A stretch of DNA of 64,000 bases from Mumia xiangluensis (GTDB lineage: Bacteria > Actinomycetota > Actinomycetes > Propionibacteriales > Nocardioidaceae), in contig NZ_WJYO01000003.1 in NCBI RefSeq assembly GCF_010994095.1, positions 496,001-560,000 of the forward strand. Direction: 5' to 3'. The notes under the pieces were generated by a model that saw only the letters and a list, made by a program, of their open reading frames with translations, did not search any database and had not been told where the DNA came from. The position numbers were made by a program, and so were the translations under genes. Below are positions 15,922 through 49,085 of the stretch, one piece after another (position 1 is the stretch's first letter; every line of letters starts with the position of its first letter).

Positions 15922-16515
15922 ATGGCTCGAGACGCTGTCACCCGCAGTCGACGCCGCGAGGCCGTTCTGGACGGTCTCGTGGATCTGTACCTCGCTGAGG
16001 GATTCCTCGGGTTCGGCATCGCGGATCTTGCCAGCCGTCTCCGGTGCTCGAAGTCGACGCTGTACGAGATCGCGCCGAGCAAGGAGCAGCTGATCACTGC
16101 CGCCGTTCGAGCGTTCTTCAAGCGCGCCACGGCGCGCGTCGAGGCCGAGGTCGCACGGGAGTCCGATCCGGTCGCCCGGATCGGCACGTACCTCGACGCC
16201 ATCGCGCGAGAGCTGGCGCCGGCCACGGAAGAGTTCTTCGTCAACCTCCAGCAGTTCGCGCCGGCACGCGATCTCTACTCGGAGAACACTGCGATCGCCG
16301 CTCGGCGCGTCCAAGGTCTCGTCCGAGAGGCCACCGGGCCCAGCGCCCCGGTCAACGCCGCCTTCATCGGAATGGTGACCGCACAGGTCATGGAAAGCAT
16401 CCAGCGCGGCGAGATGGAAGCCATGACTGCGCTTGACGATGCGACCGCGTACCACCTTCTTGCCGACCTGATCGTCAAGGGCATCGGCGCCCCGACCACC
16501 AGCACCTCACGCTGA
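15922..16515 (+). CDS. TetR-family regulator (local)
   Basis: 197 aa. N-terminal HTH around residues 10-55: LVDLYLAEGFLGFGIADLASRLRCSKSTLYEIAPSKEQLITAAV, with the recognition helix CSKSTLYEIAPSKEQL. The C-terminal helical ligand domain has no family-wide motif. Diverges from the acyl-CoA dehydrogenase/SDR pair, its likely target. Its end overlaps the convergent next TetR gene by 9 bp. Recognition helix and body differ from the two following TetR proteins, so it is not part of that paralogous pair. Confidence 0.82.
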   Translation: MARDAVTRSRRREAVLDGLVDLYLAEGFLGFGIADLASRLRCSKSTLYEIAPSKEQLITAAVRAFFKRATARVEAEVARESDPVARIGTYLDAIARELAPATEEFFVNLQQFAPARDLYSENTAIAARRVQGLVREATGPSAPVNAAFIGMVTAQVMESIQRGEMEAMTALDDATAYHLLADLIVKGIGAPTTSTSR

Positions 16516-17106
16516 CCCGAACCCAGAGCGCAGCACGCCAGACATCACGAACGTCGACAGCCCGTCGACCACCTCCGCCGTCGCCTCTGGCGAGCGATGC
16601 CGGAACCACTCCGGGACATAGGCAAGGACGCCGATGATCGAGTACTGGATCATCGCGACGTCCATCCCGCGCAGCTCTCCTGCGGCAGACCCGTCGGTCA
16701 GCAGACCCTCGGTGATACGGCGGTAGGTGTCGATCCGCTGACGCAGGTCCTTGACCTGCTCGGCAGGGAGATTCTTCTCGATCCAGGGAATCTCGTGAAA
16801 GAAGACGGCCACCTCGTCAGAGACGCCCGCCACGCGCTCCACCTGCAGCCGAACCAGTTCGCGCAAGCGCTCGGACGGTTGAGCATCCGACGGAACCTTG
16901 TCAGCGAGTGCGATCGTCTCGTCGATCTGATCGGACAGCAGCTCGAAGAGGATCGCGCTCTTGGAGGGGTAGTAGTGGTAGAGCGTGCCCTTGTTCAGCC
17001 CCACGGTGTCGGCGATGAGGTCCATCGTGGCCGAGCTGTATCCGTACTCGCGAAAGACCCGTGCAGCGGTCGCGCGCACGTCGTCACGCCGGGAGATCTT
17101 GGGCAT
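16507..17106 (-). CDS. TetR-family regulator, paralogue 1 of a divergent pair
   Basis: 199 aa from ATG 17106. HTH: DVRATAARVFREYGYSSATMDLIADTVGLNKGTLYHYYPSKSAILFELL. The C-terminal domain (VSDEVAVFFHEIPWIEKNL, MIQYSIIGVLAYVPEWF) resembles TetR proteins of fatty-acid and steroid catabolism, which sense acyl-CoA thioesters. Over half of its residues match the gene at 17410 by eye, including an identical recognition helix. An 18-bp palindrome lies 57 bp upstream of the start. The same palindrome precedes at least six other transcription units here, so this protein is a leading candidate regulator of the whole acyl-CoA cluster. Confidence 0.85.
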   Translation of the reverse strand: MPKISRRDDVRATAARVFREYGYSSATMDLIADTVGLNKGTLYHYYPSKSAILFELLSDQIDETIALADKVPSDAQPSERLRELVRLQVERVAGVSDEVAVFFHEIPWIEKNLPAEQVKDLRQRIDTYRRITEGLLTDGSAAGELRGMDVAMIQYSIIGVLAYVPEWFRHRSPEATAEVVDGLSTFVMSGVLRSGFGSA

Positions 17107-17409
17107 GTGCTTACACCTGGCCGTCTCGTGACGGGCAAATCGACCACGCCACCTCGATGAACCCAACCGACTGTTCGGCTGGTAGAAATACCCTACCAAG
17201 TCTTGAGACCAGGGCGGGGAGAGTGAAGCGTGATGAACGACCCATCGACGGGCCGGACCCCAGCGGACCGGTCACGCACAGACACGCGCGGCCTCGAACT
17301 GTCGAGACGACGGCCCTAGACCGGCGATACGATCGCGGACGGCGGCGACGAAGCCACCCAGCGCCGCAGCAGCTCGCACATCCACGGTGACATGAAGGAA
17401 AGGAACGCC
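17107..17409. promoter_or_regulatory. Intergenic region between the paired TetR genes, with operator copy A
   Basis: 303 bp without a convincing gene; short frames crossing it are not coding-like. Operator A is CAACCGACTGTTCGGCTG at 17164-17181 (16 of 18 match to the window consensus). It is followed by TAGAAA (17183-17188) and an inverted pair GGTAG (17181-17185)/CTACC (17193-17197). AAGGAAAGGAA before 17410 is the ribosome site of the plus-strand gene. The remaining roughly 180 bp between the operator and that site show no further structure I can support. Confidence 0.6.
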
Positions 17410-18000
17410 ATGCCTCGAGTTTCACGACGTGCCGATGTGCGCTCGACCGCTGCTCAACTGTTCCGTGAGCACGGTTACAACTCCGCGACGATGGACCTCA
17501 TCGCCGACACCGTGGGACTGAACAAGGGCACGCTCTACCACTACTACCCCTCCAAGAGCGCGATCCTCTACGAGCTGCTGGCCGGCCAGCTCGACACGAC
17601 GATGGAGCTGCTCGCGAAGGTCCCCGCCGAGGGCACGCCGACAGAGCGGTTCCGCGAGCTCATTCGGTTGGAAGTAGCTCAAGCAGCGGGAGCGTCGGAC
17701 GAGCTTGTCGTGTTCTTCCAGGAGCTGCCCTGGGTCGAGCGGAATCTCCCCAGCGAGCAGGCGAGCGACGTCCTCCGGCGGGTCGAGAAGTACCGCAGCT
17801 TCTCCCAGAAGCTCCTCAAGGAGGGCATCAACGCCGGTGAGTTCCGGCCCGTCAACGTCAGCATCGTCCACTACTCGATCGTCGGCGTCCTCGCGTACAT
17901 TCCGAACTGGTTCCGTCCGCGCTCCGGACGGGGCAAGGCCTCGCTCGTCGACGAGCTGACGGAGTTCGTCCTGGCAGGGGTGCTCGCGCCCCGAGACTGA
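17410..18000 (+). CDS. TetR-family regulator, paralogue 2 of a divergent pair
   Basis: 196 aa from ATG 17410, preceded by an AAGGAAAGGAA ribosome site. HTH DVRSTAAQLFREHGYNSATMDLIADTVGLNKGTLYHYYPSKSAILYELL has a recognition helix identical to the TetR at 16507-17106. The ligand domain (ASDELVVFFQELPWVERNL, SIVHYSIVGVLAYIPNWF) is also closely similar, which points to a local duplication followed by divergence. Both probably bind the same palindrome; different ligand pockets would let one operator set answer two acyl-CoA signals. Convergent with the SDR at 18016. Confidence 0.85.
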   Translation: MPRVSRRADVRSTAAQLFREHGYNSATMDLIADTVGLNKGTLYHYYPSKSAILYELLAGQLDTTMELLAKVPAEGTPTERFRELIRLEVAQAAGASDELVVFFQELPWVERNLPSEQASDVLRRVEKYRSFSQKLLKEGINAGEFRPVNVSIVHYSIVGVLAYIPNWFRPRSGRGKASLVDELTEFVLAGVLAPRD

Positions 18001-18801: not shown

Positions 18802-19916
18802 CACAAGCTGCCTTCGACGGCCTCCCGGCGTACGACCAGGCCCTGGTGGAGCTCGCGCAACCGGGACGATCGCCGCCCCGACCGCAGTTGCATCGCCTTC
18901 GCGCGCCGGAAGTGGTGGTGCAGGACGTGCTCGACTGTCGTGCCGACCCCGCCGTGCACCTGTGCCGCCGTGAGCACCACGTCCATGTACGACCTCCCCG
19001 CCGCGAACAAAGCCGCCCGCGCGACGGCCGTCTCCTGCGCTCCGGGCAGGGCACGGTTCAGGGCGTCGTCGCAGAGCAGCTGGGCGCCATCCGCGGCGAT
19101 GACCATCCGCGCCAGGTGATGGCGTACGGCCTGGAACTTCCCGAGGGGCTGCCCGAACTGGTGCCGCTCCAGCGCGTACGTCGCGGAGCGCTCGACGACG
19201 TCCTGGGCGCCACCGACCATCGCGCTCGCGCGGAGCAGGTCGGCCCTGGCGAGGGCGTACGCCGCATCCTCCGCGGACAGGTCGGTCGTCCGCACAGCCT
19301 CGCTCGGGAGCACCATCCCATCGAGGTCCAGCCGGACCATCCGCTCGTTGTCGATGCTCGGGACGTCGACCGCCCGCTCCCCGAAGGAGTCCGCGGTCAC
19401 GACGGCGCCGAGCCAGCCCCGCTCGACGGTCGGCAGCACGAGCACAACCCACTCGGCCTGCGCGAGCCACTCGACGACCACCGGCGGGCCGCTGAGGGCG
19501 AAACCGTCCGCCACGGACTCGGCCATCACCGTCCTGTCCGGGGGCGCGACGAGGGTCGCGATCGCGCCACCGACGATGCCGGCCAGCACGTCGTCGTACG
19601 TCTTGTCGGCAGCGATCGCGTCGAGGACCGTCGCCGACCGCAGCGTCTGCAGCAGCGGGCTCGCGTACGCCGCGCGCCCGCACTCGCGTGTGATGAGTGC
19701 CGCGTCGACGAGCGTGCCGTCGGCGCCGCCGACCCGTGCCGGCAGGTGGACGCTGCTCCAGCCGAGGTCGCGCATGCGGCCCCACCGAGACGCCTCGAAT
19801 CCCGTCGGGGACTCCTCCTGCTCGTTGAGGTAGGTGTTGTCGACGAAGTCACGAAGGAACGCTCGCGCGGTCGCCTGGACCTGCGTCTCCTCCTCCGAGA
19901 GCGTGAACGCGGTCAT
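18798..19916 (-). CDS. Acyl-CoA dehydrogenase, beta-type subunit of pair 1
   Basis: 372 aa. Acyl-CoA dehydrogenase fold (N-terminal helices with SSVHLPARVGGADGTLVDAALITRECGRAAYASPLLQTL; C-terminal ALERHQFGQPLGKFQAVRHHLARM), but no EGT motif; the end reads VHGGVGTTVEHVLHHHFRRAKAMQL. It directly overlaps the next dehydrogenase gene (ATGA). In mycobacterial steroid catabolism such adjacent genes encode alpha2beta2 heterotetramers (for example FadE28-FadE29), in which one subunit contributes mainly FAD and structural contacts. I infer the same arrangement here. Confidence 0.82.
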   Translation of the reverse strand: MTAFTLSEEETQVQATARAFLRDFVDNTYLNEQEESPTGFEASRWGRMRDLGWSSVHLPARVGGADGTLVDAALITRECGRAAYASPLLQTLRSATVLDAIAADKTYDDVLAGIVGGAIATLVAPPDRTVMAESVADGFALSGPPVVVEWLAQAEWVVLVLPTVERGWLGAVVTADSFGERAVDVPSIDNERMVRLDLDGMVLPSEAVRTTDLSAEDAAYALARADLLRASAMVGGAQDVVERSATYALERHQFGQPLGKFQAVRHHLARMVIAADGAQLLCDDALNRALPGAQETAVARAALFAAGRSYMDVVLTAAQVHGGVGTTVEHVLHHHFRRAKAMQLRSGRRSSRLRELHQGLVVRREAVEGSLW

Positions 19917-21082
19917 CGCGGCATCCCCAGACCCTGGTTGGCGATCATGTCGAGCTGGATCTCGTTGGTGCCCCCGCCGAAGCGCCACACCGGCGACGAC
20001 TGCAGGCCGTGCTCGAGGTGGCCGTGCGCCGGGGCGTACGGCGAACCGTGCGCGATCGCGCCCTCCTCGCCGATCAGGTCCAGTCCCGTGTTGCAGATGC
20101 GCTGGCGAAGCTCGCCCCACCAGATCTTGTTGGCCGACGCCTCGGCGACCGGCACCTTCCCGTCGGCCAGCATGCTCGCCCCCCGCAGCGCGAAGAGGCG
20201 GCAGATCTCGACGTCCACGGCGTGCTCTCCCATGCGTTCCTGGAGGGCGTACGCGTCCGCGCTCTCGCCCTCGAGGAGACCCTGCTCTCGCGCCCAGTCT
20301 GCGAGCTGCTCCAGCTCCCAGCGGGGTTCGTTGTGGAAGAACATCCGCTCGAAGTTGAGAGCGCAGACGATCGCGGCCCAGCCCTCGTTCTCCTCGCCGA
20401 TGCGCTGCGACGCAGGGATTCGGACGTCGTCGAGGTAGACCGACGTCGTCCGCTCCCCACCCTGGGTGACGATCGGGGTGACCGTGATGCCGGGCGCGTC
20501 CATCGGCACGATGAACAGGCTGACGCCGCGGTGGCGGTCCTCCTGCTTGCCCGTCCGCGCTGCCAGCCAGTAGTGGGTGGCGACGTGCCCACCGGTGGTC
20601 CAGAGCTTCTGCCCGTTGACGACGTACTCGTCGCCGTCGCGGACGGCCCGCGTCCGCAGCGACGCGAGGTCGCTGCCGGCGTCGGGCTCGCTGTAGCCGA
20701 TCGCGAACACCAGCTCGCCGTTGATGATCCGCGGCAGGTAGTCGGCCTTCTGCTCCTCGGTCCCGGTCAGCATGAGCGTGGGGCCGATGACGTTGAGGGT
20801 GAGCAGGCCGTTGGGGAGCCGGCGGCTGTAGAGCTCCTCGGCGAACAGCCAGTGCTCGATCTCGGTGCGACCCTGCCCGCCGTACTCGGTCGGCCAGGAG
20901 ACGCCCAGCCACCCGTCAGCGGCGAGCTGGCGCAGGAACCGGCGTCCGTGCTCGCGTGGCTGCATCGGATCAGCGATGTTCTCCGCCCGGGTCGACTCGA
21001 CGAGCTCGGGATCGAGCCCGTCGAGGTAGGACCTCAGCTCGGCGAGGAAGGACCGCTGATCGGGGCCAAGGACGGTCTTCAC
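19913..21082 (-). CDS. Acyl-CoA dehydrogenase, alpha-type subunit of pair 1
   Basis: 389 aa from GTG 21082. This start is preferred over GTG 21094 because GGAGG lies 5 bases upstream of it. Landmarks: YGGQGRTEIEHWLFAEEL, YSEPDAGSDLASLRTRAVRDGDEYVVNGQKLWTTGG, ALNFERMFFHNE and RFGGGTNEIQLDMIANQGLGMPR. The EGT Glu is Gly, but Glu in FER on helix G is available, as in isovaleryl-CoA dehydrogenase-type enzymes. Promoter-proximal gene behind operator B, diverging from the carboxylase-like operon. Confidence 0.85.
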   Translation of the reverse strand: MKTVLGPDQRSFLAELRSYLDGLDPELVESTRAENIADPMQPREHGRRFLRQLAADGWLGVSWPTEYGGQGRTEIEHWLFAEELYSRRLPNGLLTLNVIGPTLMLTGTEEQKADYLPRIINGELVFAIGYSEPDAGSDLASLRTRAVRDGDEYVVNGQKLWTTGGHVATHYWLAARTGKQEDRHRGVSLFIVPMDAPGITVTPIVTQGGERTTSVYLDDVRIPASQRIGEENEGWAAIVCALNFERMFFHNEPRWELEQLADWAREQGLLEGESADAYALQERMGEHAVDVEICRLFALRGASMLADGKVPVAEASANKIWWGELRQRICNTGLDLIGEEGAIAHGSPYAPAHGHLEHGLQSSPVWRFGGGTNEIQLDMIANQGLGMPR

Positions 21083-21134: not shown

Positions 21135-21168
21135 GGTCTAGTCAACCAACTGGTCGGTTGTGTAGTGT
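21135..21168. promoter_or_regulatory. Operator copy B with divergent -10 boxes
   Basis: CAACCAACTGGTCGGTTG at 21143-21160 matches the window consensus CAACCRACYRGTYGGTTG at all 18 positions. On the plus side TAGTGT (21163-21168) lies 2 bp away and 7 bases before GTG 21176, a leaderless arrangement. On the minus side TAGACC (21140-21135) is also 2 bp away. A repressor bound here would block both divergent promoters. Confidence 0.7.
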
Positions 21169-21175
21169 CCGCCGG

Positions 21176-22234
21176 GTGAGCGACCGTGACTTCCACCACA
21201 TCACTCCGGCCGAGATCGCCTGGCACAGCGAGCTCGGGAAGAACGACCCGGACTTCGTCGACCTGTTCTGGCTCGACGCAGGCCTCGACAACGGCTGGCA
21301 GGTCGGTGTCGGCTTCTACCGCTCCCGCCCCCACGACGGCGGTCGACCGGCGATCACGCTCAACCTCGTACGGCCGGGCGAGGAGTTCGTCGAGGTCCAC
21401 GAGACGTTTGCAGCCGACGCCTTCGCGCCGGCGGAGTTCGGCGGGCAGTGGGGTGACGCCAACGTCCTCGTCGGCACCTTCGACTCCCGCGGGAGGCCGG
21501 AGTCGATTCGCCTGTCGGTCGCCGTCGGCGGCGTGCGGGTCGATCTCTCCGGCGCGGTGGTCTGCTCCGGGGTGAAGTTCACGTCCGCGACACCGGGCTA
21601 CACGCACTACCGCGAGGAGACGGGGACGGCGGTCGGCTGGTGGCCGGTCGCTCCCCGCGTGGACGTCGTCGGCCGCATCACGGTCGACGGCGACGACGTC
21701 GAGGTGAAGGGCACCGCTCACCTGGAGAAGCAGCTGTCGTCACTCCCGCTGGCGGGCGAGGCTGGCGCCCCTTCGGCCCAGTCCATGTGGACGTGGGGCC
21801 ACTTCACCTGCGGCGACTACACCGGGATCTGGACGGACTCAGCCGCCTCCGAGCAGCTCGGCTACCGGCACTTCACGCCCTTCGTGCTCTACCGCGGGAG
21901 CGAGCCCGTCCTGAGCACCTTCGCGTTCTCCAGCAACGTCGAGCGCTTCGTGACGGAACCGGACACGGCGCTCCCCCGCCCGCAGGTCGTCACCCTGAAG
22001 GCGTCCGACGGACACCGGGACTTCTTCGCCCGCCTCGTCGACGGCCGGGTCAGCGACCAGTTCGAGCTCAACGGCGTCGCCGGGGCCTACTACTGCCGCC
22101 AGGTCGGTCGCATCGAGGCAGAGATCCACCACTGGGGCGCGCGTACCCGCATCGACGGCGAGGTCGTCCACGAGTGGGGCACGCAGGCCGGCAACTTCCC
22201 GTTCGCACGCTCGCGCAGAGGAGACGACGAATGA
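21176..22234 (+). CDS. Uncharacterised beta-rich protein, possibly AttH/CrtC lipocalin-like
   Basis: 352 aa from GTG 21176, positioned for leaderless translation. I do not recognise it with confidence. No signal peptide or TM segment is visible. It is rich in predicted beta strands and Trp/Tyr/His (SMWTWGHFTCGDYTGIWTDSAASEQLGYRHFTPFVLY, AEIHHWGARTRIDGEVVHEWGTQAGNF). The W-W-G-H pattern and two-half organisation recall AttH/hydroxyneurosporene-synthase-like double lipocalins, which bind hydrophobic ligands; this is a weak suggestion. It overlaps the first HyuA gene by 4 bases and is first in the carboxylase-like operon, so it may bind or modify that enzyme's substrate. Confidence 0.5.
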   Translation: MSDRDFHHITPAEIAWHSELGKNDPDFVDLFWLDAGLDNGWQVGVGFYRSRPHDGGRPAITLNLVRPGEEFVEVHETFAADAFAPAEFGGQWGDANVLVGTFDSRGRPESIRLSVAVGGVRVDLSGAVVCSGVKFTSATPGYTHYREETGTAVGWWPVAPRVDVVGRITVDGDDVEVKGTAHLEKQLSSLPLAGEAGAPSAQSMWTWGHFTCGDYTGIWTDSAASEQLGYRHFTPFVLYRGSEPVLSTFAFSSNVERFVTEPDTALPRPQVVTLKASDGHRDFFARLVDGRVSDQFELNGVAGAYYCRQVGRIEAEIHHWGARTRIDGEVVHEWGTQAGNFPFARSRRGDDE

Positions 22235-24324
22235 CCATTCTCGACACGGAACACGGGACACAACCACCGGGGAGCACGTGCATCGGCGTCGACGTCGGCG
22301 GCACGTTCACCGACGCGATTCTGTCCGACGGTACGACGGTGTGGCGCGCCAAGGCCCCGAGCACGCCCGGCGACCTCGGGGCCGGCGTGCTCGACGCCTG
22401 CGAGCGGGTGGCCGAGCGGGCCGGCACCACGCTCGACGCGCTCCTCCCGAGCGTCGCCCGGTTCGGGCTCGGCACGACCGCGGTGACCAACGCCATCGCC
22501 TCGCGTACCGGTCGTCGCCTCGGGCTCGTGACCACGCAGGGCTTCGAGGACCTGGTCCCCATGGCCCGGGCGATGCGCACCCACGTCGACGGCTGGCTGA
22601 CCACCCCCGATTCCCTGGTCGACCGGGAACGCATCCGCGGTGTCCGCGAGCGCGTCGACCGCACGGGCACCGTGCTCACTGCGCTCGATCCGGCCGACGT
22701 CGTCGCCGAGGTCCAGTGGCTCGTGGACCACCACCAGATCGAGGGTCTGACCGTCTCCTTCCTGTGGTCGTGCGTCAACGACGCCCACGAGAGCGCGGCC
22801 GTCGCGGCGGTCCGTGAGCGCTTCCCCGACCTGCCCCTCACCTCCGGGGCGGAGCTGCTGCCCGTGGTCAAGGAGTTCGAGCGCACCCAGTTCGCCCTGC
22901 TCAACGCGTACACCGGCGGCGCACTCGACGGCGTCGACACGCTCGCCGCCGAGCTCGCCGCGCGAGGCCTGCGGGTGTCACCGCTGCTCGTGCACTCCGG
23001 CGGCGGGTCGATCAGCGTGGCCGAAGGCCGGAACGTCCCTGCCACCATGGCCGAGTCCGGACCCGCCGCCGGTGTCATCGCCGCCCAGGCCATCTGCGCC
23101 GCCACCGGGGTCAGCAACGCCGTCACCGGCGACGTCGGCGGCACGTCCTTCGACGTCTCGTTCATCTCCGACGGCGTGGCGTCACGGCGCAGCACCGGTG
23201 AGCTGATGGGGATCTGGACCGCATTGCCGATGATCGACATCAACTCGATCGGCACCGGCGGCGGGTCCATCGGCTGGGTGGACTCGCTCAACATCCTGCG
23301 TGTCGGGCCGCGCTCGGCCGGCGCGAACCCCGGCCCCGCCTGCTACGGCCGGGGTGGCTCGGAACCGACGGTCACGGATGCGCTAGTGGTGCTCGGCTAT
23401 ATCGACCCCGCCCAGTTCCTCGGCGGCACGATGACCCTCGACAGCGATGCCGCTATGGCGGCCTGCGAGACGCTGGCCGGGCAGCTGGGGATGAGCGCGG
23501 TCGAGGCCGCGTGGGGGATCTGGGAGGTCGCCAAGTCCAGCATGACCCGCGCGCTGCGAGCCCGGTTCGCCGAGCAGGGCGTCGACCAGCGCGAGTTCTC
23601 GCTGATCACGATGGGCGGCTGCGGAGCACTGTCGAGCGCAGAGATCGCCCACGAGCTCGGGCTGCGCGGAGTCGTCGTCCCCGAGCTCGCCTCCGTCCTG
23701 TCCGCGTTCGGCGCCGCAACGTCGGACGTACGCCGCGAGCGCAGCCGCGCGGTGTCGGTCCTGCTCCCCGACGGCAGCGACGTGCTGGCGCAGACCGCCA
23801 AGGAGCTGGCCGACGAGGTCCGCGCCGACCTCGCGGCCGACGAGGTACCCGACGAGGACGTCACGATCGGGCTGATCGCGGACGTACGGTTCTTCCGTCA
23901 GCACTACGAGCTGCAGATCCCGTGGGACGGCGGCCTCGACGAGGACGGTCAGGCCGCACTGGTCAAGCGGTTCACGAGCGAGTACGTCTCGCGGTACGGC
24001 TCCGGCGCCGTGTCCACCGGTGCGCCGGTCGAGCTCGTCACGCTGCGGGCGTATGGCCTCGGTGCGACCGTACGCGCGTCCCTGGCCCAGTACGACGACG
24101 GTCCCGGCGGAGTACCCGAACCCAGCGGCGAGCGCCTGATACACCTCACCCGCGGCAGCGAGCCCACCTCCGTACCCACCGTCGTCGGCGACACCCTGCA
24201 GCCCGGGCACCGCCTCACGGGTCCGGCCGTCATCGACGCCGCCGACACCACGATCTGGATCCCCGAGACCTTCACCGCCACCGTCGACTCCTACCGCAAC
24301 CTGCACCTGGAGGCAGCGAAATGA
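22231..24324 (+). CDS. HyuA-type ATPase subunit 1 (hydantoinase/oxoprolinase, acetone carboxylase beta-like)
   Basis: 697 aa. N-terminal phosphate loop GVDVGGTFTDAIL, FGLGTTAVTNAIASRTG, then the second ASKHA phosphate motif GDVGGTSFDVSFI and GTGGGSIGWVD followed by RVGPRSAGANPGPACYG. All are diagnostic of HyuA/hydantoinase A, which phosphorylates a carbonyl or amide oxygen using ATP. The C-terminal domain contains QHYELQIPW. In acetone and acetophenone carboxylases this subunit activates bicarbonate or ketone. Overlaps both neighbours by 4 bases (ATGA), so stoichiometric co-translation with HyuB1 is likely. Confidence 0.88.
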   Translation: MTILDTEHGTQPPGSTCIGVDVGGTFTDAILSDGTTVWRAKAPSTPGDLGAGVLDACERVAERAGTTLDALLPSVARFGLGTTAVTNAIASRTGRRLGLVTTQGFEDLVPMARAMRTHVDGWLTTPDSLVDRERIRGVRERVDRTGTVLTALDPADVVAEVQWLVDHHQIEGLTVSFLWSCVNDAHESAAVAAVRERFPDLPLTSGAELLPVVKEFERTQFALLNAYTGGALDGVDTLAAELAARGLRVSPLLVHSGGGSISVAEGRNVPATMAESGPAAGVIAAQAICAATGVSNAVTGDVGGTSFDVSFISDGVASRRSTGELMGIWTALPMIDINSIGTGGGSIGWVDSLNILRVGPRSAGANPGPACYGRGGSEPTVTDALVVLGYIDPAQFLGGTMTLDSDAAMAACETLAGQLGMSAVEAAWGIWEVAKSSMTRALRARFAEQGVDQREFSLITMGGCGALSSAEIAHELGLRGVVVPELASVLSAFGAATSDVRRERSRAVSVLLPDGSDVLAQTAKELADEVRADLAADEVPDEDVTIGLIADVRFFRQHYELQIPWDGGLDEDGQAALVKRFTSEYVSRYGSGAVSTGAPVELVTLRAYGLGATVRASLAQYDDGPGGVPEPSGERLIHLTRGSEPTSVPTVVGDTLQPGHRLTGPAVIDAADTTIWIPETFTATVDSYRNLHLEAAK

Positions 24325-26420
24325 CCCTCACCGACCACCGGACGGCGTCCGACCCGATCGCCCTGGAAGTGTTGCGCTCCCGCCTGCAGGCCGTGGCCGA
24401 GGAGGGCGCGATCACCATCGAGCGCACCGCGATCAGCCCTATCATCATCGAGAGCCGCGACTACTCCTGCACGCTTCTGGAGGCGGACGGCTCGATGATG
24501 GTGGCCGGCGGCGCCATCTCGCACCACTTCGGCATCTGCGGCCCGGCCGTCCACGTCACGATGGCGAGCCACGGCACCATCTCCCCCGGGGACGTCTTCC
24601 TGTCGAACGACCCGTACAACGGGGGTGGACTGCACCCGCAGGACGTCGTCGTGCAGATGCCGGTGTTCCACGGCGACACGCTGATCGCGTGGGTGGTGAA
24701 CTCCGGCCACCTCATCGACCTCGGCGGCATGGTATTCGGCTCGTGGACCCCCGCGGCGACCGAGTGCTACCAGGAGGCGCTGCGGTTCCCGCCCGTACGC
24801 CTGTTCCGGGCGGGCGTCGAGCAGCCCGACGTGTGGGGCATCCTGCGGACCAACGTGCGTCAGGCCGACATGGTCGAGATGGACATGCGAAGCCTGGTGG
24901 CCGGCTGCCAGGTTGCCGCGGACAAGCTCGTCGCCATCGCCGACAGCATGGGGACGGAGGGGTTCGTCGACAGAGTCGCCGAACTGCGGCGTCTGGCCGA
25001 GGCCGAGATGCGCCGCCGCATCGGCCAGCTCGCCGACGGCGAGTACCGCTACGACATGTGGGTGGAGTGGCACGACGAGCTGTACGAGGTGCCGACCCGG
25101 ATGACCGTGCGCGGCGACGAGCTGGTCTTCGACTTCGAGGGAGCCCCGCCGCAGGCCGACCACTTCTTCAACACGCAACCGCACATCGTGACCGCGGGCG
25201 TCGTCGGCGACATCTCCGACGTGCTCACGTACGACCTGCCACTGAACGAGGGCATGTTCGCGCCGGTCACGGTGAACTGTCCGAAGGGCACGATCATGCA
25301 CAGCGCGCCGCCGGCACCGGTGGCCTCCGCACACTGCGACGTCGCCCTCGCGGCGTCCACCGCGGCCACCGAGTGCGTGATGATGGCGATCGCCGCCTCC
25401 GACGAGAGCGAGGTCGCACACCTCGCGACCGGCCCGATCGCGTCGACCACGCTGGCGATCCAGATCTGGGCGTACGTCGGACCCGCCGGCCCCGACGGCT
25501 GGATGATGCTCGACGGCGCGATGGGCGGGGCCGCTGCGGCTCACGACCACGACGGCATCGACCTGTCCAACTTCATGGTGTCGCGCGCGCAGATCATGGA
25601 GGCGAGCGACGTCGAGTCGCTGGAATCCGCGTACCCCATGCTCGTCGACTTCAAGCGGGCCCGCGGTGGCGCGTTCGGCGAGGGCACGTTCCGCAGCGGC
25701 GGCGGCGCCCACATGCAGCTGCGGCCGCACGGCATCCCCCAGATCGTCGGGCAGTGCCTGGCGATCCGCGAGGACATCCCGCTCAACGGTGCGGCCGGGG
25801 GCTTCCCGGGCGGGGTGTGCGAGTTCACGCTGCACCTCGCCGACGGCACCAGCGACACGCTGCCGGGCAAGAGCAGCGACGTGGTGCTCGCCGAGGGCGA
25901 CGCGGTCGAGTTCGCGTTGGCCACGGCGGGCGGCTACGGCGACCCGCTGGACCGGGAGCCGGACAGGGTCGCTCGCGACGTACGGTGTCATCGCATCACG
26001 ACCGAGGTGGCGCTGACGTCGTACGGCGTCGTCGTCGAGGACGGCCTGCCCGACCTCGACGCCACCGCGCGACGACGCGAGCAGATCCGGGCGGAGCGGC
26101 TCGCGGCAGCCCAGCCGGCGACGAAGCCGGTAACCGGACCCGCGCGGGCGGGCGACCTCGAGCAGGCGCCGTACCCGCTGTTCGTCGGCGTCCAGCGGCG
26201 CGGCGCGACCGCGGTCGCCGCGCAGAGCGGAGCGCTCCTCGCGCACGCGCCGGACTCCTGGACCGACGGGTGCCCGACGCTGGAACGCCAGGTCGCCCCC
26301 GCCATCATCGAGCGCACGTACCTCGATCCGCAGACGGGACGCACCTTGCTGGTCGAGGCAGTCCCGTCAGGGTCGCCGCTCAGCATCGCGGCCCAGCCCG
26401 ACCACTGGACGAAGGCGTGA
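24321..26420 (+). CDS. HyuB-type subunit 1 (hydantoinase B/oxoprolinase)
   Basis: 699 aa. Begins DPIALEVLRSRLQAVAEEGAITIERTAISP, with IIIESRDYSCTLLEADG, GDVFLSNDPYNGGGLHPQDVVVQMPVF and AWVVNSGHLIDLGGMV, the metal-binding His/Asp pattern of HyuB/acetone carboxylase alpha. The mid-region has GGAFGEGTFRSGGG and the C-terminus GGYGDPLDREPDRVARDV, typical of the family. A roughly 100-residue tail (QIRAERLAAAQPATKPVTG onward) lies beyond the conserved core. Pairs with the HyuA1 protein encoded immediately upstream. Confidence 0.88.
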   Translation: MTLTDHRTASDPIALEVLRSRLQAVAEEGAITIERTAISPIIIESRDYSCTLLEADGSMMVAGGAISHHFGICGPAVHVTMASHGTISPGDVFLSNDPYNGGGLHPQDVVVQMPVFHGDTLIAWVVNSGHLIDLGGMVFGSWTPAATECYQEALRFPPVRLFRAGVEQPDVWGILRTNVRQADMVEMDMRSLVAGCQVAADKLVAIADSMGTEGFVDRVAELRRLAEAEMRRRIGQLADGEYRYDMWVEWHDELYEVPTRMTVRGDELVFDFEGAPPQADHFFNTQPHIVTAGVVGDISDVLTYDLPLNEGMFAPVTVNCPKGTIMHSAPPAPVASAHCDVALAASTAATECVMMAIAASDESEVAHLATGPIASTTLAIQIWAYVGPAGPDGWMMLDGAMGGAAAAHDHDGIDLSNFMVSRAQIMEASDVESLESAYPMLVDFKRARGGAFGEGTFRSGGGAHMQLRPHGIPQIVGQCLAIREDIPLNGAAGGFPGGVCEFTLHLADGTSDTLPGKSSDVVLAEGDAVEFALATAGGYGDPLDREPDRVARDVRCHRITTEVALTSYGVVVEDGLPDLDATARRREQIRAERLAAAQPATKPVTGPARAGDLEQAPYPLFVGVQRRGATAVAAQSGALLAHAPDSWTDGCPTLERQVAPAIIERTYLDPQTGRTLLVEAVPSGSPLSIAAQPDHWTKA

Positions 26421-26425
26421 CGGCG

Positions 26426-28750
26426 ATGACCACCGTCCACACCGACGATCTGGACGCGTACGACGACATCGTGTGGGACGGGGTGCAGCACAGCTACCGC
26501 CCCTCTCCCGACTGGCGGGACCGGGTCTCCTCGACGCTCGCGATCGACACGGCTGCCGACGAGGACCTCGATCCCGTGACGTTCGAGGTCCTCCGCAACC
26601 GGCTGTGGACGCTGAACCTCGCCCACGGCGACACGCTCTCGCGGATGTCGGGCTCACCGATCTTCCAGGCGCTCGACTTCAACATGTCGATCCTCACCGA
26701 GGACGGCGAGATCGTGATGGGCGCGCCGTTCATCCAGTACCTCAACACCGGCTCGCCGCTGATGATCCGCTACCTGATGGAGCGACTGAGCGAGAACCCC
26801 GGCATCGAGGAGGGCGACATCTTCCTCGCCAGCGACCCGTGGATCGGCGCCTCGCACCAGATGGACGTCTGCATCGCGGCGCCGGTGTTCGTCGACGGCA
26901 AGCTGTTCGCGTGGGTGTCCAACGCCGCGCAGCAGTACGACCTGGGCGGCATCGTGCCTGGCGGATGGCCGCAGAACGCACCCGACATCTTCAGCGACCC
27001 GATCATCTTCCGACCGTTCAAGCTGGTCGAGCAGGGCGTGCTTCGGCCCGATCTCGAGGAGATGTTCCGACGGCAGTCACGCCTCCCGGACATGGTGGCC
27101 CTCGACCTGCGTGCCCAGCTCGCCGGGTGCCGGTTCGCGGCACAACGGCTGCAGGAGACGTGCGAGGAGTTCGGAGCCTCGACCGTCAAGGCGGCGATGC
27201 GGAGCATTCTCGACAACGCCCAGGCGGCGTTCGCGCGCAAGCTCGAGCGTGTCCCGGACTGCACGCTCAGCGACGTCCTCTACTTCGACGAGTTGATGCC
27301 CGGCGACCGGACGACGCACCGCGTGCAGTTCAACGTCACCAAGCGCGGGTCACGTCTGATCATCGACAACGTCGGCACCGACCCCCAGGTCGACGGGCCG
27401 ATCGGCTTCACGTACATGAACTTCGCCGGCATCGTGCTCGGCGTCGTCGGCCAGACCATGCTCCACGAGCACACGTTCTCGGTCGGAGGAGCGGAGCGGC
27501 AGATCGACTTCCGCCCGCGCCCCGGGACACTGAGCTGCGTCGACTACCCCGCCGCCGTCAGCGGCAGCGTGCTCAACGTCAGCAGCGCGTACATGCGGCT
27601 GCACAACGTGTTCTCCCGCCTGATGGCCTGCGACCCGCAGCTCAAGGAGGACCTGGTCGTCTCCGGCCCCGACGTCCCGCTGACCGTGATCGCGGGAGCC
27701 GACGAAGGCGGTCGTGTGTTCGGTACGGCGCTGACCGAGGCCTCCGGCTTCGGCGGCGGCGCGCGGTCGCACTCCGACGGGGTCGACACCAGCGGGGCCT
27801 CGTACATCCCGCTCATCCGGATGCCGAACATCGAGGCGAGCGAGCAGTTCTACCCGATGCTCGTGATGTATCGCAGAGCGGCACCCGACAGCGGCGGCGC
27901 CGGGCGGTGGCGCGGCGGCGTCGGCATGGAGGTGGCGATCACCCCGTACCACGCGGCCGCGATCGACATCGTCACCAACGCCGGCGGGCAGGGCGTCTCG
28001 ACCAACCAGGCCGTCGGGGTCTTCGGGGGTCTCCCGTCGCCGACGGCCCGGTACGAAGTGCTGGCCGGCACCGACATCCGTGACCGCTGGACCGACGGCG
28101 AGATGCCGCGGGACGTCGCCGAGCTGACGCGACGCGAGGCCCAAACGCTGCGCGGCAAGTCCAACGGGACCCCGCTGAACGCCGACGACGTACTGCTGCT
28201 CGTCGTGTGCGGCGGCGGTGGGTATGGCGACCCGCTCGACCGCGAGCCCGAGCGCATCGCGGACGACGTGGCGCAGGGACGGGTCTCGGTCGAGGCAGCC
28301 GCCGCGCTGTACGGCGTGGTGCTGGACGGCGACGCCGTGGATGCGGGGGCGACCGGCGTACGGCGTACGGAGGTCCGCGCCGAGCGGGCGACGTGGCGAC
28401 CTGCGGCCGAGGTCTTCGAGGGCACGGCCCCGTACGACGTCGCGTCGGCGACGGCCGAGCCGGCGGTCTCGGTCCACGAGTACGTCGTCGCCCGGGACGA
28501 CGGCGAGCGCCGTGTGCTCGCGTGCGCGACGTGCAACCACGTCCTGTCTGACTACCGCGACAACTACAAGCGTGGGTTGCTCGTCGACCAGACCGGCGTC
28601 GACGTCCTCCCCCGGGTCGACGATCCTCGCGCCTTCCTCGACGAGGACATGGTCCTGCGGCGCTACTGCTGCCCGGGCTGCCAGACGCTGATGACGATCG
28701 AGATCGCTCGCGCGAGCGAGCCGATGCTGACGGAGGTGGTGTTCCGATGA
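26426..28750 (+). CDS. HyuB-type subunit 2 fused to an acetone-carboxylase-gamma-like zinc domain
   Basis: 774 aa from ATG 26426 (GAAGG 10 bases upstream); a GTG at 26417 would add three residues. The HyuB core includes DPVTFEVLRNRLWTLNLAHGDTLSRMSG, GDIFLASDPWIGASHQMDVCIAAPVF and GGGGYGDPLDREPERIADDV. After about residue 660 a separate domain follows with CATC (Cys700, Cys703) and CCPGC (Cys749, Cys752), a likely zinc ribbon. Acetone and acetophenone carboxylases use a small separate zinc-containing gamma subunit; here an equivalent appears to be fused to HyuB. Only the fusion is seen; the gamma identity is inferred from the cysteine pattern and context. Confidence 0.83.
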   Translation: MTTVHTDDLDAYDDIVWDGVQHSYRPSPDWRDRVSSTLAIDTAADEDLDPVTFEVLRNRLWTLNLAHGDTLSRMSGSPIFQALDFNMSILTEDGEIVMGAPFIQYLNTGSPLMIRYLMERLSENPGIEEGDIFLASDPWIGASHQMDVCIAAPVFVDGKLFAWVSNAAQQYDLGGIVPGGWPQNAPDIFSDPIIFRPFKLVEQGVLRPDLEEMFRRQSRLPDMVALDLRAQLAGCRFAAQRLQETCEEFGASTVKAAMRSILDNAQAAFARKLERVPDCTLSDVLYFDELMPGDRTTHRVQFNVTKRGSRLIIDNVGTDPQVDGPIGFTYMNFAGIVLGVVGQTMLHEHTFSVGGAERQIDFRPRPGTLSCVDYPAAVSGSVLNVSSAYMRLHNVFSRLMACDPQLKEDLVVSGPDVPLTVIAGADEGGRVFGTALTEASGFGGGARSHSDGVDTSGASYIPLIRMPNIEASEQFYPMLVMYRRAAPDSGGAGRWRGGVGMEVAITPYHAAAIDIVTNAGGQGVSTNQAVGVFGGLPSPTARYEVLAGTDIRDRWTDGEMPRDVAELTRREAQTLRGKSNGTPLNADDVLLLVVCGGGGYGDPLDREPERIADDVAQGRVSVEAAAALYGVVLDGDAVDAGATGVRRTEVRAERATWRPAAEVFEGTAPYDVASATAEPAVSVHEYVVARDDGERRVLACATCNHVLSDYRDNYKRGLLVDQTGVDVLPRVDDPRAFLDEDMVLRRYCCPGCQTLMTIEIARASEPMLTEVVFR

Positions 28751-30861
28751 CCGGCCGCTACGTGATCGGTGTCGACATCGGTGGCACGTTCACCGACTGC
28801 GTGCTCCTCGACGACGAGGGCCGGATCGCGATCGGCAAGGCGCCGTCGACCCCGCCGGACTTCCACGAGGGGTTCCTCGCCGCGATCGAGGTCGCGGCGG
28901 CCCGGATCGGGATCGGTGCCGAGGTGCTGATCGGCCAAGCGCGCGCGATCGTGCACGGCTGCACGGTCGCGACGAACGCGCTGGTCGAGAAGCGGACGTC
29001 GCGGACGGCGCTCCTCACCACCGCCGGGCACGGCGACACGCTGTCCTTCATGCAGGCGGGGCACCGGCTCGCCGGGCTCGATGCCCGCCAGATCGCCCGT
29101 CTGGCGGGGCACACCAAGCCCGAGGCGCTGATCCCGAAGTCCCTCGTGGTCGAGGTCGACGAGCGCGTCGCCGCCGACGGGTCGGTGATCGTGGCGCTCG
29201 ACGAGGACCGCGTACGGGACCAGGTCAGGGCACTGGTGGCCGACGGGGTGGAGGCCTTCGCGGTCACCTTCTTGTGGTCGACCGCGAACGACCGGCACGA
29301 GCGGCTCCTCGGTCGCATCATCAGCGAGGAGGCGCCTGACGCGTTCCTGTCGCTCAGCTGCGAGGTCAGTCCGCGTCCGGGTGAGTACCAGCGCAGCGTC
29401 GCGACCGCGATCAACGCCATGATCGGCCCGGTCACCAGCACCTACCTGCAGCAGCTCACCGCGCGGCTGCAGGCGTTGGGCTACACGGGCGAGCTCGCCG
29501 TGATGAGCTGCACCGGCGGCCTGATCGACGCCGCGCGCGCGAGCCGCCTCCCGCTGCTCACCATCGGCTCCGGACCGGTGGCCGGGCTGATCGGCGCCGG
29601 CAAGCTGGCGCAGGCGATGGGCGGTGGGACCGCCGCGGACGACGGCAACGTGCTCACGGGCGACATGGGCGGGACGACGTTCGACGTCGGCGTCATCCGT
29701 CGCGGGCAGCCCGTCACGCGGAGCGAGACCCGCTATGGACAGTACGAGTACTTCGTCCCCACGCTCGACGTCCGCTCGGTCGGCTCGGGTGGCGGCAGCA
29801 TCGTCGCGTACGACGAGGAGACCGCGAGCCTTCGCGTCGGTCCGCAGAGCGCGGGCGCCGTCCCCGGCCCGGCGGCGTACCTGCGCGGCGGCGAGAAGGC
29901 CACCGTCACCGATGCCGACCTCGTGCTCGGCTACCTCAACCCGGAGTACTTCCTCGGTGGTGACATCGCCCTCGGCACCCAGGCCGCCCGCGACGCACTG
30001 GAGCGCGCCGGCAGCCCGCTCGGATTCACCGCCGAGCAGACGGCCGCCGCGGCCGCCCGGATCGTCGACGACCAGATGGCCGACGCGATCCGGCTCTCGA
30101 GCATCCAGCAGGGGTACGATCCGCGCTCGTGCGTGATGTACGCGTACGGCGGCGCGGGCGCCGTGCACTGCCCGCAGGTCGCGCGCAGTCTCGGGATCCG
30201 GACCCTCGTCATCCCGCTCGGCGACCTCGCGGCGGGCTGGTCGGCCTTCGGCGTCGCGTCGTCCGACGCAATGCTGGTGCAGGACATGCCGCTGGTCCTC
30301 GCATCGCCCTTCGATCCGGACGCGCTCAACAACGCGTGGAAACAGCTCGAGGAGGAGGTTCGCGCAGCGATGCCGGAGGGGATGCGCGACGCGAACCCGG
30401 TCCTCGAACGCTCCGCCGAGATGCGTTTCACGATGCAGGTCAACCAGATCCGCATCCCGGCGCCCGACGGCGTCTACGGCCCCGACGAGGTCACGCAGCT
30501 GGTGGCGGCGTTCGAGGAGGAGTACGAGCGCCTGTACGGGCAGGGCAGCGGCTACCCCGTGGCGGGGTTCATGGTCACGTCGCTGCGGGTCAGCGCCCGG
30601 GCACAGATGGCGGCCGCGGAGCTGACCGCGCGCGGTGACGGCGTACCGCACGACGTCGCACCCGCCGGCGAGCGCGACGTGATCTGGTACGAGCTCGGAC
30701 CGGACCCGGTGCGTACGCCGGTGTACCGCGGCTCGGAGTTCACCTCCGGCTCCCGCGTCGTCGGGCCTGCGATCGTCGAGTTCGTCGACACCACGCTCGT
30801 CCTGCGGCAGGGACAGCGTGCGATCGTCGACACCTACGACAGCATCGTGATCGAGACCTGA
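28747..30861 (+). CDS. HyuA-type ATPase subunit 2 (hydantoinase/oxoprolinase)
   Basis: 704 aa. GVDIGGTFTDCVLLDD at the start, HGCTVATNALVEKRTSRTALLTTAG, GDMGGTTFDVGVIRRG and GSGGGSIVAYDEETASLRVGPQSAGAVPGPAAY are the HyuA ATPase motifs. Distinct from HyuA1 in its insert AMGGGTAADDGNVLTG and in its C-terminus. Overlaps the HyuB2-gamma gene by 4 bases. Two HyuA plus two HyuB subunits with a gamma-like domain match the complexity of acetophenone carboxylase more than that of simple hydantoinase. Last gene of the operon; followed by terminator-like hairpins. Confidence 0.88.
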   Translation: MTGRYVIGVDIGGTFTDCVLLDDEGRIAIGKAPSTPPDFHEGFLAAIEVAAARIGIGAEVLIGQARAIVHGCTVATNALVEKRTSRTALLTTAGHGDTLSFMQAGHRLAGLDARQIARLAGHTKPEALIPKSLVVEVDERVAADGSVIVALDEDRVRDQVRALVADGVEAFAVTFLWSTANDRHERLLGRIISEEAPDAFLSLSCEVSPRPGEYQRSVATAINAMIGPVTSTYLQQLTARLQALGYTGELAVMSCTGGLIDAARASRLPLLTIGSGPVAGLIGAGKLAQAMGGGTAADDGNVLTGDMGGTTFDVGVIRRGQPVTRSETRYGQYEYFVPTLDVRSVGSGGGSIVAYDEETASLRVGPQSAGAVPGPAAYLRGGEKATVTDADLVLGYLNPEYFLGGDIALGTQAARDALERAGSPLGFTAEQTAAAAARIVDDQMADAIRLSSIQQGYDPRSCVMYAYGGAGAVHCPQVARSLGIRTLVIPLGDLAAGWSAFGVASSDAMLVQDMPLVLASPFDPDALNNAWKQLEEEVRAAMPEGMRDANPVLERSAEMRFTMQVNQIRIPAPDGVYGPDEVTQLVAAFEEEYERLYGQGSGYPVAGFMVTSLRVSARAQMAAAELTARGDGVPHDVAPAGERDVIWYELGPDPVRTPVYRGSEFTSGSRVVGPAIVEFVDTTLVLRQGQRAIVDTYDSIVIET

Positions 30862-30897
30862 GCCTCCTCCGCCGCCTCCGCGCCGCGGCGCCGCGCT

Positions 30898-30927
30898 CCC
30901 ACCTCCCCCGTCTCCCCCGCCTCCCCC
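30898..30927 (-). other. G-quadruplex-capable G-tracts
   Basis: On the minus strand four G-runs (three runs of five and one of three) are separated by 4-base loops; on the plus strand they appear as CCCCC runs at 30905-30909, 30914-30918 and 30923-30927 plus CCC at 30898-30900. Located between convergent transcription units, 37 bp after the HyuA2 stop. Structure formation is inferred from spacing only. Confidence 0.5.
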
Positions 30928-30951
30928 GTTTGCGGTGCTACCACCTGAAAT

Positions 30952-30989
30952 GCCGGGACCCCACCGCGAATTTGCGGTGGGGTCCCGGC
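30952..30989. terminator. Strong intergenic hairpin between convergent operons
   Basis: Perfect 16-bp stem, 30952-30967 pairing with 30974-30989, around a 6-base GAATTT loop. It lies between the end of the carboxylase-like operon (30861) and the end of the minus-strand FadD operon (31124). No long U-tract follows on either side. It may act in both directions as an intrinsic-like or road-block terminator. Confidence 0.65.
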
Positions 30990-31015
30990 GTTTGCGGTGC
31001 TAGCACCGCAAACGC
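30988..31015. repeat. Perfect 28-bp palindrome
   Basis: A perfect 14-bp inverted repeat meeting at CTAG with no loop, directly abutting the 16-bp hairpin. Its left arm sequence TTTGCGGTGCTA also occurs separately at 30930-30941. Could be a second terminator stem or a protein-binding site. Confidence 0.6.
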
Positions 31016-31121
31016 GTGGGCCGAGGGACGGCGAGGCAAACGCGTGGGCCGAGGGACGGCGAGGCAAACGCGCGGGCCGAGGGACGGCGAGGCAAACGCG
31101 TGGGCGGAGGGACGGCGAGGC
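31010..31121. repeat. Tandem repeat, four 28-bp units
   Basis: Units at 31010-31037, 31038-31065, 31066-31093 and 31094-31121. Units 1 and 2 are identical; unit 3 has one change (T to C) and unit 4 has one change (C to G). The core reads GGGCCGAGGGACGGCGAGGC. The array ends 2 bp before the stop codon of the minus-strand FadD gene. The 28-bp period is not a multiple of 3 and there are no spacers, so it is neither coding nor CRISPR. Confidence 0.85.
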
Positions 31122-47364: not shown

Positions 47365-48252
47365 ATGCCGGACAAGGTGATGACGGCCGCGGAGGCGGTC
47401 GGGCTGATCCGTGACGGCGACGTCGTCGGGCTCCAGGCCGGACCGACGCAGTGCGCACCGATGAGTCTCGTGCGCGCACTCGTCAGGGCCGGCCGGCGCG
47501 ACCTTCATGCTGTCTCGCTCAGCGGGTCGATGGCCCTGGACTGGCTCGCGACCAGCGGAGCGCTCACCCGCCTCACGACCGCGGCCGTGACGATGGAGAG
47601 CTACGGCATGTGCCGCCAGGTCCGGCGTGCCGTCGAGTCGGGCGTCGTGGGGTTCGAGGAGCTGTCCGAGACCGCTCTGCTCGCCCGCCTCGGCGCGGCC
47701 GCCCGAGGACTCCCCTTCCTGCCCACCCGCGGCATGCTCGGCTCCGACCTCCTGTCCGTCGGCAACGCTCATCTCGCGGTGATCGACGACCCGTTCGGGG
47801 GGCCGCCGGTCGTCGCCTGCCAGGCACTGCGACCCGACGTCGCGCTCCTGCACGCCCATCGGGCGGACGCCGACGGCAACGTCGCGGTCGACCCCGGCCC
47901 GCGCCACCCGATGACCACCCTGCTGCCGCGTGCCAGCGACCGGGTGGTCGTCAGCGTCGAGGAGATCGTCGACGCCGACACGCTCCGCGAGCATCCGGAG
48001 CAGACCATCCTCCCGAGCTTCGCGGTGGACGCCGTCGTCCTCGCGCCGTACGGGGCCCACCCGACGTCGCTCTTCCCGCGGTACGACTACGACGCGGCGG
48101 CCTTCCAAGCCTGGGTGGACGCGTCGCGCGACCCCGCCGACGCCGAGGCGTTCCTCGCCTCGTACGTGCACGGACCGGCGACGCACGACGACTACCTCGC
48201 CCTCGTCGGTGCCGACCGCCTGTCCGCTCTCACGATGGAGCGGGCGTCGTGA
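47365..48252 (+). CDS. CoA-transferase alpha subunit, IpdA/glutaconate CoA-transferase-like
   Basis: 295 aa. MPDKVMTAAEAVGLIRDGDVVGLQA at the N-terminus, LPFLPTRGMLGSD, ALLHAHRADADGNVAVDPGP and VVVSVEEIVDADTLREHP match the GctA/IpdA family. IpdAB in Mycobacterium is a CoA-dependent hydrolase that opens the last steroid ring rather than a transferase. This pair may likewise be a cyclic-ketone CoA hydrolase. GTGA overlap with the beta subunit; starts 6 bp after the crotonase gene. Confidence 0.82.
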   Translation: MPDKVMTAAEAVGLIRDGDVVGLQAGPTQCAPMSLVRALVRAGRRDLHAVSLSGSMALDWLATSGALTRLTTAAVTMESYGMCRQVRRAVESGVVGFEELSETALLARLGAAARGLPFLPTRGMLGSDLLSVGNAHLAVIDDPFGGPPVVACQALRPDVALLHAHRADADGNVAVDPGPRHPMTTLLPRASDRVVVSVEEIVDADTLREHPEQTILPSFAVDAVVLAPYGAHPTSLFPRYDYDAAAFQAWVDASRDPADAEAFLASYVHGPATHDDYLALVGADRLSALTMERAS

Positions 48253-49085
48253 GCGGCGCGAAGCGGTCGACGGAGGCACAGCCCGGCGACGCTCCGTCCA
48301 CCAGCTACTCGGTCGACGAGCTCGTCGTGAGCCGTCTCGCTGCGGAGCTCGCGGACGACGACCAGGTGCTCAACGGCCTGTCGTCGTTCGTCCCCGTCTG
48401 CGCGATCGAGCTGGCCCGGCGGACGCACGCGCCCGGCCTCGTATGGGTCGCGGGCGGGACCGGTGTCTCGCCGTCACACCCGAGGATGACGGCGTCCACC
48501 TTCGAGTGGCCGCTGTGGGACAGCGCGCTGATGTACGTCGACGTGGCCACCGAGCTGTGGGACTGGGTGGCCGACCCGCGGCGCTTCCGCACGTTCTTCG
48601 CCGGCGCCGCCCAGCTCGACGCCTTCGGCAACGCCAACATCTCGGTCGTCGGCGACTACCACCGCCCCCGCGTACGCCTCTCGGGGACGGCGGGTCTGGC
48701 CGACATGAGCGTGCTCGACAAGCGGATCGTGTACGTCGTCACCGACCACGACCCGCGCACGCTGGTCGAACGCGTCGACTTCCGGTCCGGAGTCGGCTTT
48801 CTCGACGGGTACGGCGAGCGCGCGCGCCGCGGCCTGGGAGGCGGGCCGGCGCTGGTCGTCACGAACCTCGCCGTGTTCGACTTCGCGCCGTCCTCGCAGC
48901 GGATGCGGCTCCGTACGGTGCATGCAGGGCACACCGTCGACGACGTCCTCGCCGCCACCGGGTTCGTCCCCGTGATCGCCGACGACGTCACCGTCACCCC
49001 GGCGCCGACCGTCGCGCAGGTGGCGCTCCTGCGCGACGAGATCGACCCCGAGGGCTACCGTCGACGCGGCTTCCCCGCTCGGTGA
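48249..49085 (+). CDS. CoA-transferase beta subunit, IpdB/GctB-like
   Basis: 278 aa from GTG 48249. YSVDELVVSRLAAELADDDQVLNGLSSFVPVCAIELARRTHAPGLVWVAGGTGVSP, then FFAGAAQLDAFGNANISVVGDYHRPRVRLSGTAGLADMSVLDKR. The second block is the conserved GctB/IpdB core (AQVDxxGNxN, GSGG-like loop). No clear SENG-type Glu is seen, as expected for the IpdB branch. Forms the heteromer with the upstream subunit. Convergent with the 49095 gene. Confidence 0.82.
   Translation: MSGAKRSTEAQPGDAPSTSYSVDELVVSRLAAELADDDQVLNGLSSFVPVCAIELARRTHAPGLVWVAGGTGVSPSHPRMTASTFEWPLWDSALMYVDVATELWDWVADPRRFRTFFAGAAQLDAFGNANISVVGDYHRPRVRLSGTAGLADMSVLDKRIVYVVTDHDPRTLVERVDFRSGVGFLDGYGERARRGLGGGPALVVTNLAVFDFAPSSQRMRLRTVHAGHTVDDVLAATGFVPVIADDVTVTPAPTVAQVALLRDEIDPEGYRRRGFPAR

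Follow-up and report, generated by a model that had tools for sequence, protein, structure and literature searches.

A conserved HyuA/HyuB-gamma pair, a candidate two-polypeptide ketone carboxylase, shares an operon of Mumia xiangluensis with a probably acquired second HyuAB pair

Among the enzymes built from HyuA- and HyuB-type subunits, a gamma subunit is present in the acetone (Acx) and acetophenone (Apc) carboxylases and in none of the hydrolases (Weidenweber et al., PMC5214803). In the Apc structure, the active site is too distant from gamma for this subunit to be directly involved in carboxylation (PMC5214803), and the presence of gamma therefore marks a branch of the family and does not prove a reaction. 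In the M. xiangluensis sequence analysed here (64,000 nucleotides, hereafter the window), five ORFs at positions 21176-30861 encode two HyuA-type and two HyuB-type proteins plus a leader protein, and one of the HyuB proteins ends in a gamma domain. The parts all belong to known families, and the fused alpha/beta-gamma branch is catalogued just as 'hydantoinase B/oxoprolinase'. Our reading, which we regard as reasonably probable in its entirety, is that the operon encodes two separable ATP-using enzymes and not one, with the HyuA/HyuB-gamma pair predicted to be a fused alpha/beta-gamma ATP-dependent ketone-carboxylase-like enzyme.

All five genes lie on the plus strand. The leader gene P0001 (21176-22234, 352 aa) is followed by a cassette consisting of P0002 (22231-24324), a HyuA-type alpha subunit in which the alpha-subunit fingerprint RERVDRTG and the ATP motifs are present, and P0003 (24321-26420), a HyuB-type beta subunit. 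P0004 (26426-28750, 774 aa) is a fusion of a HyuB beta subunit with a zinc-type gamma domain of the acetone/acetophenone carboxylase kind, and P0005 (28747-30861), a HyuA-type ATPase, is the alpha subunit with which it is conserved as a pair. Pfam assigns three Hydantoinase_A domains each to P0002 and P0005 and a full Hydantoinase_B domain to both P0003 and P0004, in agreement with an earlier note on this DNA, made from the sequence alone, which had named two HyuA and two HyuB proteins. The coupling of the five ORFs that it described is likewise present, as the genes at 22231, 24321, and 28747 start inside the upstream stop codon (4-bp ATGA overlaps) and the ATG at 26426 follows the end of P0003 after a gap of five bases. 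Right after the operon, a unit of ~28 bases is repeated in tandem at 30870-31120, together with GC-rich inverted repeats.

The acetone-carboxylase-gamma domain on P0004 (28456-28747) is real. The C-terminus of the protein matches PF08882 (Acetone_carb_G) with 33.1 bits, where the cutoff is 21, and the domain spans residues ~677-773, counted without the first Met. In this numbering, its cysteine pairs CATC and CCPGC are C699/C702 and C748/C751 (+1 in the 774-aa numbering), and all four cysteines, those of the metal site of this domain family, are invariant in the sequences compared (80/80). A profile of 45 fused proteins matched the Apc gamma chain 5l9w_C (E 2.8e-11) and Acx gamma (E 4.6e-5). 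The gamma-like domain that the earlier note had recognised by its cysteines also has the acetone carboxylase gamma fold in the AlphaFold model of P0004 (mean pLDDT 88, gamma part mostly 85-96), where Foldseek aligned it with Acx gamma (5svc_C, E 5.9e-5) and Apc gamma (5l9w_C, probability 1.00). A separate gamma chain was not among the matches listed in a DALI-like comparison of the long P0004 model. In HyuA-HyuB-gamma operons on haloarchaeal plasmids, the HyuB is 36-40% identical to P0004, and an HMM built from the fused domains matches the stand-alone gamma with E values of 1e-28 to 1e-33; with a separate gamma gene behind the same HyuB in these archaea, P0004 is a simple fusion of two subunits.

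This gamma-HyuB fusion is common across many bacteria and not particular to the operon studied here. When 84,980 species genomes were scanned, nearly all of the best 80 relatives were full-length fusions, and they come from Pseudomonadota, Acidobacteriota, Actinomycetota, SAR324, Rokubacteria, and others. A P0005-type HyuA adjoins the fused HyuB in 70 of these 80 loci, most of the others ending at a contig edge, and none of the 80 has a P0002-P0003 pair between the HyuA and the fused HyuB. The conserved unit is thus HyuA(28747) plus HyuB-gamma(26426), and the view of the five genes as one conserved unit was not confirmed. Some Actinomycetota encode a second, Acx-like HyuB-gamma fusion of 930-956 aa (L085, L086, L087) that is related to acetone carboxylase; in the tree it groups with the Apc-type beta subunits, away from P0004, which suggests that gamma fusion probably arose more than once. 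In one of these proteins (L086), the gamma cysteines are partly lost.

A different history emerges for the cassette. In the same-genus genome G005, the cluster is syntenic and the operon consists of P0001-P0004-P0005 (81%-84% identity) with the cassette absent; relatives of P0002 and P0003 (59% and 61%) are found ~50 kb away, beside amidohydrolases, a Rieske ferredoxin, and an APH/DUF7064 pair. Nakamurella lactea, a member of another order, has P0001, P0004-P0005, and APH-DUF7064-P0002-P0003 (P0002/P0003 at 85/89% identity) as three units within ~30 kb. In the M. xiangluensis genome, an amidohydrolase/Rieske/APH/DUF7064 cluster lies just past the window, and the HyuAB position in it is taken by a CoA ligase. 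The P0002 and P0003 of the window are 85%-90% identical to the N. lactea pair vs. ~60% to that of their own genus, and in the trees the cassette joins Nakamurella and not its own genus with full support, unlike P0004 and P0005, which track the species order. Judged by these identities and trees, the cassette was most likely acquired horizontally and inserted between P0001 and P0004. It would there stand in for, and take over the role of, the pair that in G005 belongs to a nearby cluster under the same regulon.

The earlier note had read the four HyuA/HyuB proteins as one heteromeric enzyme. This could be, for instance, an alpha-beta-beta'gamma-alpha' complex whose halves handle ketone and bicarbonate. 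Such a complex would agree with the translational coupling and near-zero gaps, with the joint presence of both pairs and common operators in all three cassette-bearing genomes, and with the gamma Cys4 site lying in one half and the complete set of metal ligands in the other. However, the two pairs are in separate operons in two of these three genomes, the relatives of the cassette genes lying outside the operon in G005 and in an operon of their own in N. lactea, and HyuA/HyuB-gamma stands alone in dozens of others. In four genomes, P0004-P0005 orthologs of 48-60% identity occur without close P0002/P0003, the best match to P0003 reaching 29-33%. The cassette is also rare while the P0004-P0005 unit is widespread: no P0003 relative at E 1e-90 or better was found in the 394 other genomes of the class (cassette in 1/395). 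Neither HyuA resembles the alpha' subunit of acetophenone carboxylase. On balance, a single four-subunit enzyme appears improbable to us. Coupling within one genome is poor proof of a single complex where the middle cassette was acquired separately.

The reading of two separable enzymes leaves room for a shared pathway. The operon stands behind the best copy of a TetR-type operator, AACCAACTGGTCGGTT at 21144-21159, located between the operon and a divergent acyl-CoA dehydrogenase gene (19913-21082, minus strand). Seven intergenic copies of the operator AACCAACYRGTYGGTT are present in the window (14 strand-hits vs. ~0.65 expected by chance), and the earlier note was right in calling the one ahead of the operon the best. 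A site of equal score (23.2) is found at the same place in the same-genus genome (L040:6538). G005 has copies ahead of P0001, P0004, and the P0002 unit and N. lactea ahead of the P0004 and P0002 units, some of the copies in these two genomes being weak. With both pairs behind copies of one TetR-type operator in three genomes, they probably serve one pathway; the common operators speak for a single regulon and pathway and not for a single complex. Two TetR paralogs (16507-17106 and 17491-18000), which are ~60% identical and divergent around an operator at 17165, are the likely regulators of the regulon.

The leader gene P0001 is rare, found at high similarity in two of the 295 family genomes and at 52% identity in Nakamurella lactea. 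By profile comparison, its product is a CrtC/AttH/Svf1-type two-domain lipocalin-like protein: its own Pfam match is under the cutoff and searches against the PDB gave no matches, but hhalign aligned it with two CrtC_N-matching proteins over 263 columns and both lipocalin domains (96% probability, E 1.9e-9). A role as hydratase, isomerase, or carrier would be a guess. Kinship with the DUF7064/DUF7065 protein that lies beside P0002-P0003 in relatives was considered and dropped, as the comparison was not significant. Two CrtC-like distant relatives of P0001 (L090, L091) both adjoin an apparent mce-type transport operon.

As five genes like apcABCDE, with P0001 close in size to the epsilon subunit, the operon might also be taken for one in which the cassette supplies an Apc-type alpha' and accessory subunits that merely assist P0004-P0005. 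We consider this highly improbable. P0002 gives 295 bits against ApcC (alpha) and 224 against ApcA (alpha'), whereas the control alpha' proteins from two Actinomycetota Apc-type operons have ApcA as their best match and are without the alpha fingerprint. In addition, P0003 is a complete HyuB protein, and P0001 shows a relationship of the CrtC/lipocalin type. More generally, an Apc-like alpha/alpha' split of the two HyuA proteins was rejected, as neither scores best to ApcA; the best scores of P0002 and P0005 are to CapA and ApcC, by which both are classified as alpha-type HyuA.

Under the two-enzyme reading, the first enzyme would be formed by P0005, the alpha subunit with an ASKHA-type ATPase, and P0004, and would correspond, in two polypeptides, to the ketone carboxylases with separate alpha, beta, and gamma. 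Because gamma is restricted to carboxylases in this family (PMC5214803), the pair contains the subunits that a ketone carboxylase would have. We put ketone carboxylation by P0005 and P0004 somewhat above an even chance. The alpha subunit would probably phosphorylate the ketone enolate and bicarbonate, and beta would join them; a CoA ligase or transferase could then activate the beta-keto acid so formed, for cleavage by a thiolase, and the cluster has genes for all of these enzymes. In full, the CoA-dependent catabolic cluster to which the earlier note had correctly assigned the operon and its regulon contains several CoA ligases, acyl-CoA dehydrogenases, crotonases, thiolases, F420-type oxidoreductases, and a CoA-transferase-like pair, and a KshA-like Rieske oxygenase is encoded ~11 kb past the window. 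This gene content suggests a polycyclic, perhaps steroid-like, ketone feeding a CoA-ligase/thiolase route. The more specific proposal that the pair is a biotin-independent carboxylase acting on a steroid- or terpenoid-like ring or side-chain ketone, in a pathway for which the second HyuAB enzyme would be required as well, is a tentative one. The CoA-transferase-like pair (47365-49085) resembles IpdAB-type proteins, and its N. lactea counterpart adjoins P0001 (L184).

Genomic neighbourhoods elsewhere point in more than one direction. Among the best 80 relatives, the neighbouring genes show no single fixed pathway, and include CoA ligases (16 loci), crotonases (14), CaiB transferases (10), and aminotransferases (8). 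On Rhodococcus opacus plasmid pCP105, the row SDR - HyuA - HyuB-gamma - SDR - acyl-CoA ligase has the order expected, by analogy with the acetophenone pathway, for a conversion of alcohol to ketone, keto acid, and CoA ester. A plasmid of Haloterrigena alkaliphila (L195) carries an acetoacetate decarboxylase family gene, HyuA-HyuB-gamma, and then an AMP-binding ligase. In several Alphaproteobacteria, a class-III aminotransferase gene lies directly downstream of the fused HyuB, as might be expected if the substrate were an amide or lactam.

These aminotransferase neighbours are one argument for seeing P0004-P0005 as an ATP-dependent lactam, imide, or amide hydrolase that has kept gamma for its structure and does not carboxylate. 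The top scores of the alpha subunits, which are to caprolactamase and N-methylhydantoinase, also support it, as does residue 168 of P0004 (counted without Met), a Gln in place of the fourth putative metal-ligand His of beta; this Gln is shared by the two closest orthologs, and the His is kept in 78 of 80 aligned sequences among the best 80 relatives. Against it stand the lack of gamma in the characterised hydrolases, the P0004 beta part, which is nearest to acetophenone carboxylase beta, and the ketone-like contexts in Rhodococcus and haloarchaea. Moreover, a clear nitrogen-handling enzyme was not found among the scanned cluster proteins. We therefore judge hydrolysis by this pair to be rather unlikely and retain ketone carboxylation as the favoured activity.

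The second enzyme, P0002-P0003, is an alpha-beta pair with no gamma subunit. It is a candidate for Hyd-type, ATP-dependent hydrolysis of an amide or lactam, with a fold predicted to be closest to caprolactamase/hydantoinase. P0003 keeps the four putative metal ligands; its extra tail of ~90 residues (about 610-699) resembles gamma minus the cysteines, aligning with it by eye and being modelled in the same strand order. A degenerate gamma was nevertheless not supported statistically, as the gamma HMM misses the tail and neither profile-profile comparison (E 0.15) nor Foldseek against Acx gamma (E 0.062) gave firm matches; PF08882 and the gamma cysteines are absent from P0003 by Pfam and alignment. 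The alignment behind the P0003 model held gamma-bearing sequences and may have biased it, and the likeness of the tail to gamma is thus only a suggestion.

We found no description of a HyuB-gamma fusion, or of a HyuAB role in steroid breakdown, in the open-licence literature searched. Among the many proteins annotated just as 'hydantoinase B/oxoprolinase', the fused gamma domain sets apart a coherent and widespread alpha/beta-gamma branch, with its unfused version in haloarchaea; this branch likely fixes bicarbonate onto ketones without biotin. With two polypeptides in place of three to five subunits, such enzymes should also be simpler to express than those investigated to date. If the steroid/terpenoid proposal were true, it would add a new carboxylation step to such catabolism and a carboxylase type across many phyla.

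Of the described systems, Apc from Aromatoleum aromaticum (PDB 5L9W) is nearest to the P0004 beta part by both sequence (319 bits) and fold (Z 34.0), in agreement with the kinship to acetone/acetophenone carboxylases seen in the earlier note. It likewise has a four-cysteine gamma domain and the alpha ATP motifs, but its gamma is a separate subunit and it has alpha' and epsilon, whereas here gamma is fused to beta, alpha' is absent, and epsilon was not identified. The apc gene order is alpha'-gamma-alpha-beta(-epsilon), as in the two operons L088 and L092, in contrast to the fused gamma and two betas of the present operon. Acx (PDB 5SVB/5M45) has the same composition as P0005 plus P0004, i.e. 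one alpha, one beta, and one gamma, but in three polypeptides instead of two, with a beta subunit of 22-23% identity, and the P0005 alpha is closer to the hydrolase alphas. P0004 falls outside the Acx branch, scoring higher to Apc beta than to Acx, and the tree agrees. CapAB and N-methylhydantoinase (PDB 6YRA, 7HK5, 9H03) are the best match of P0002, P0003, and P0005; caprolactamase alpha outscores every carboxylase alpha for both alpha subunits, and the fold of P0003 is nearest to caprolactamase beta (Z 39.0). The characterised enzymes of this type lack gamma, and P0003 is ~120 residues longer. The operons on Natronosalvus, Haloterrigena, and Haladaptatus plasmids belong to the same family, with an unfused 'acetone carboxylase subunit gamma' gene directly behind HyuB. 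The fusions annotated as 'hydantoinase B/oxoprolinase family protein' in Mycobacterium branderi, Rhodococcus opacus, and many Pseudomonadota and Acidobacteriota (34-73% identity) have the same architecture, in operons without the inner cassette.
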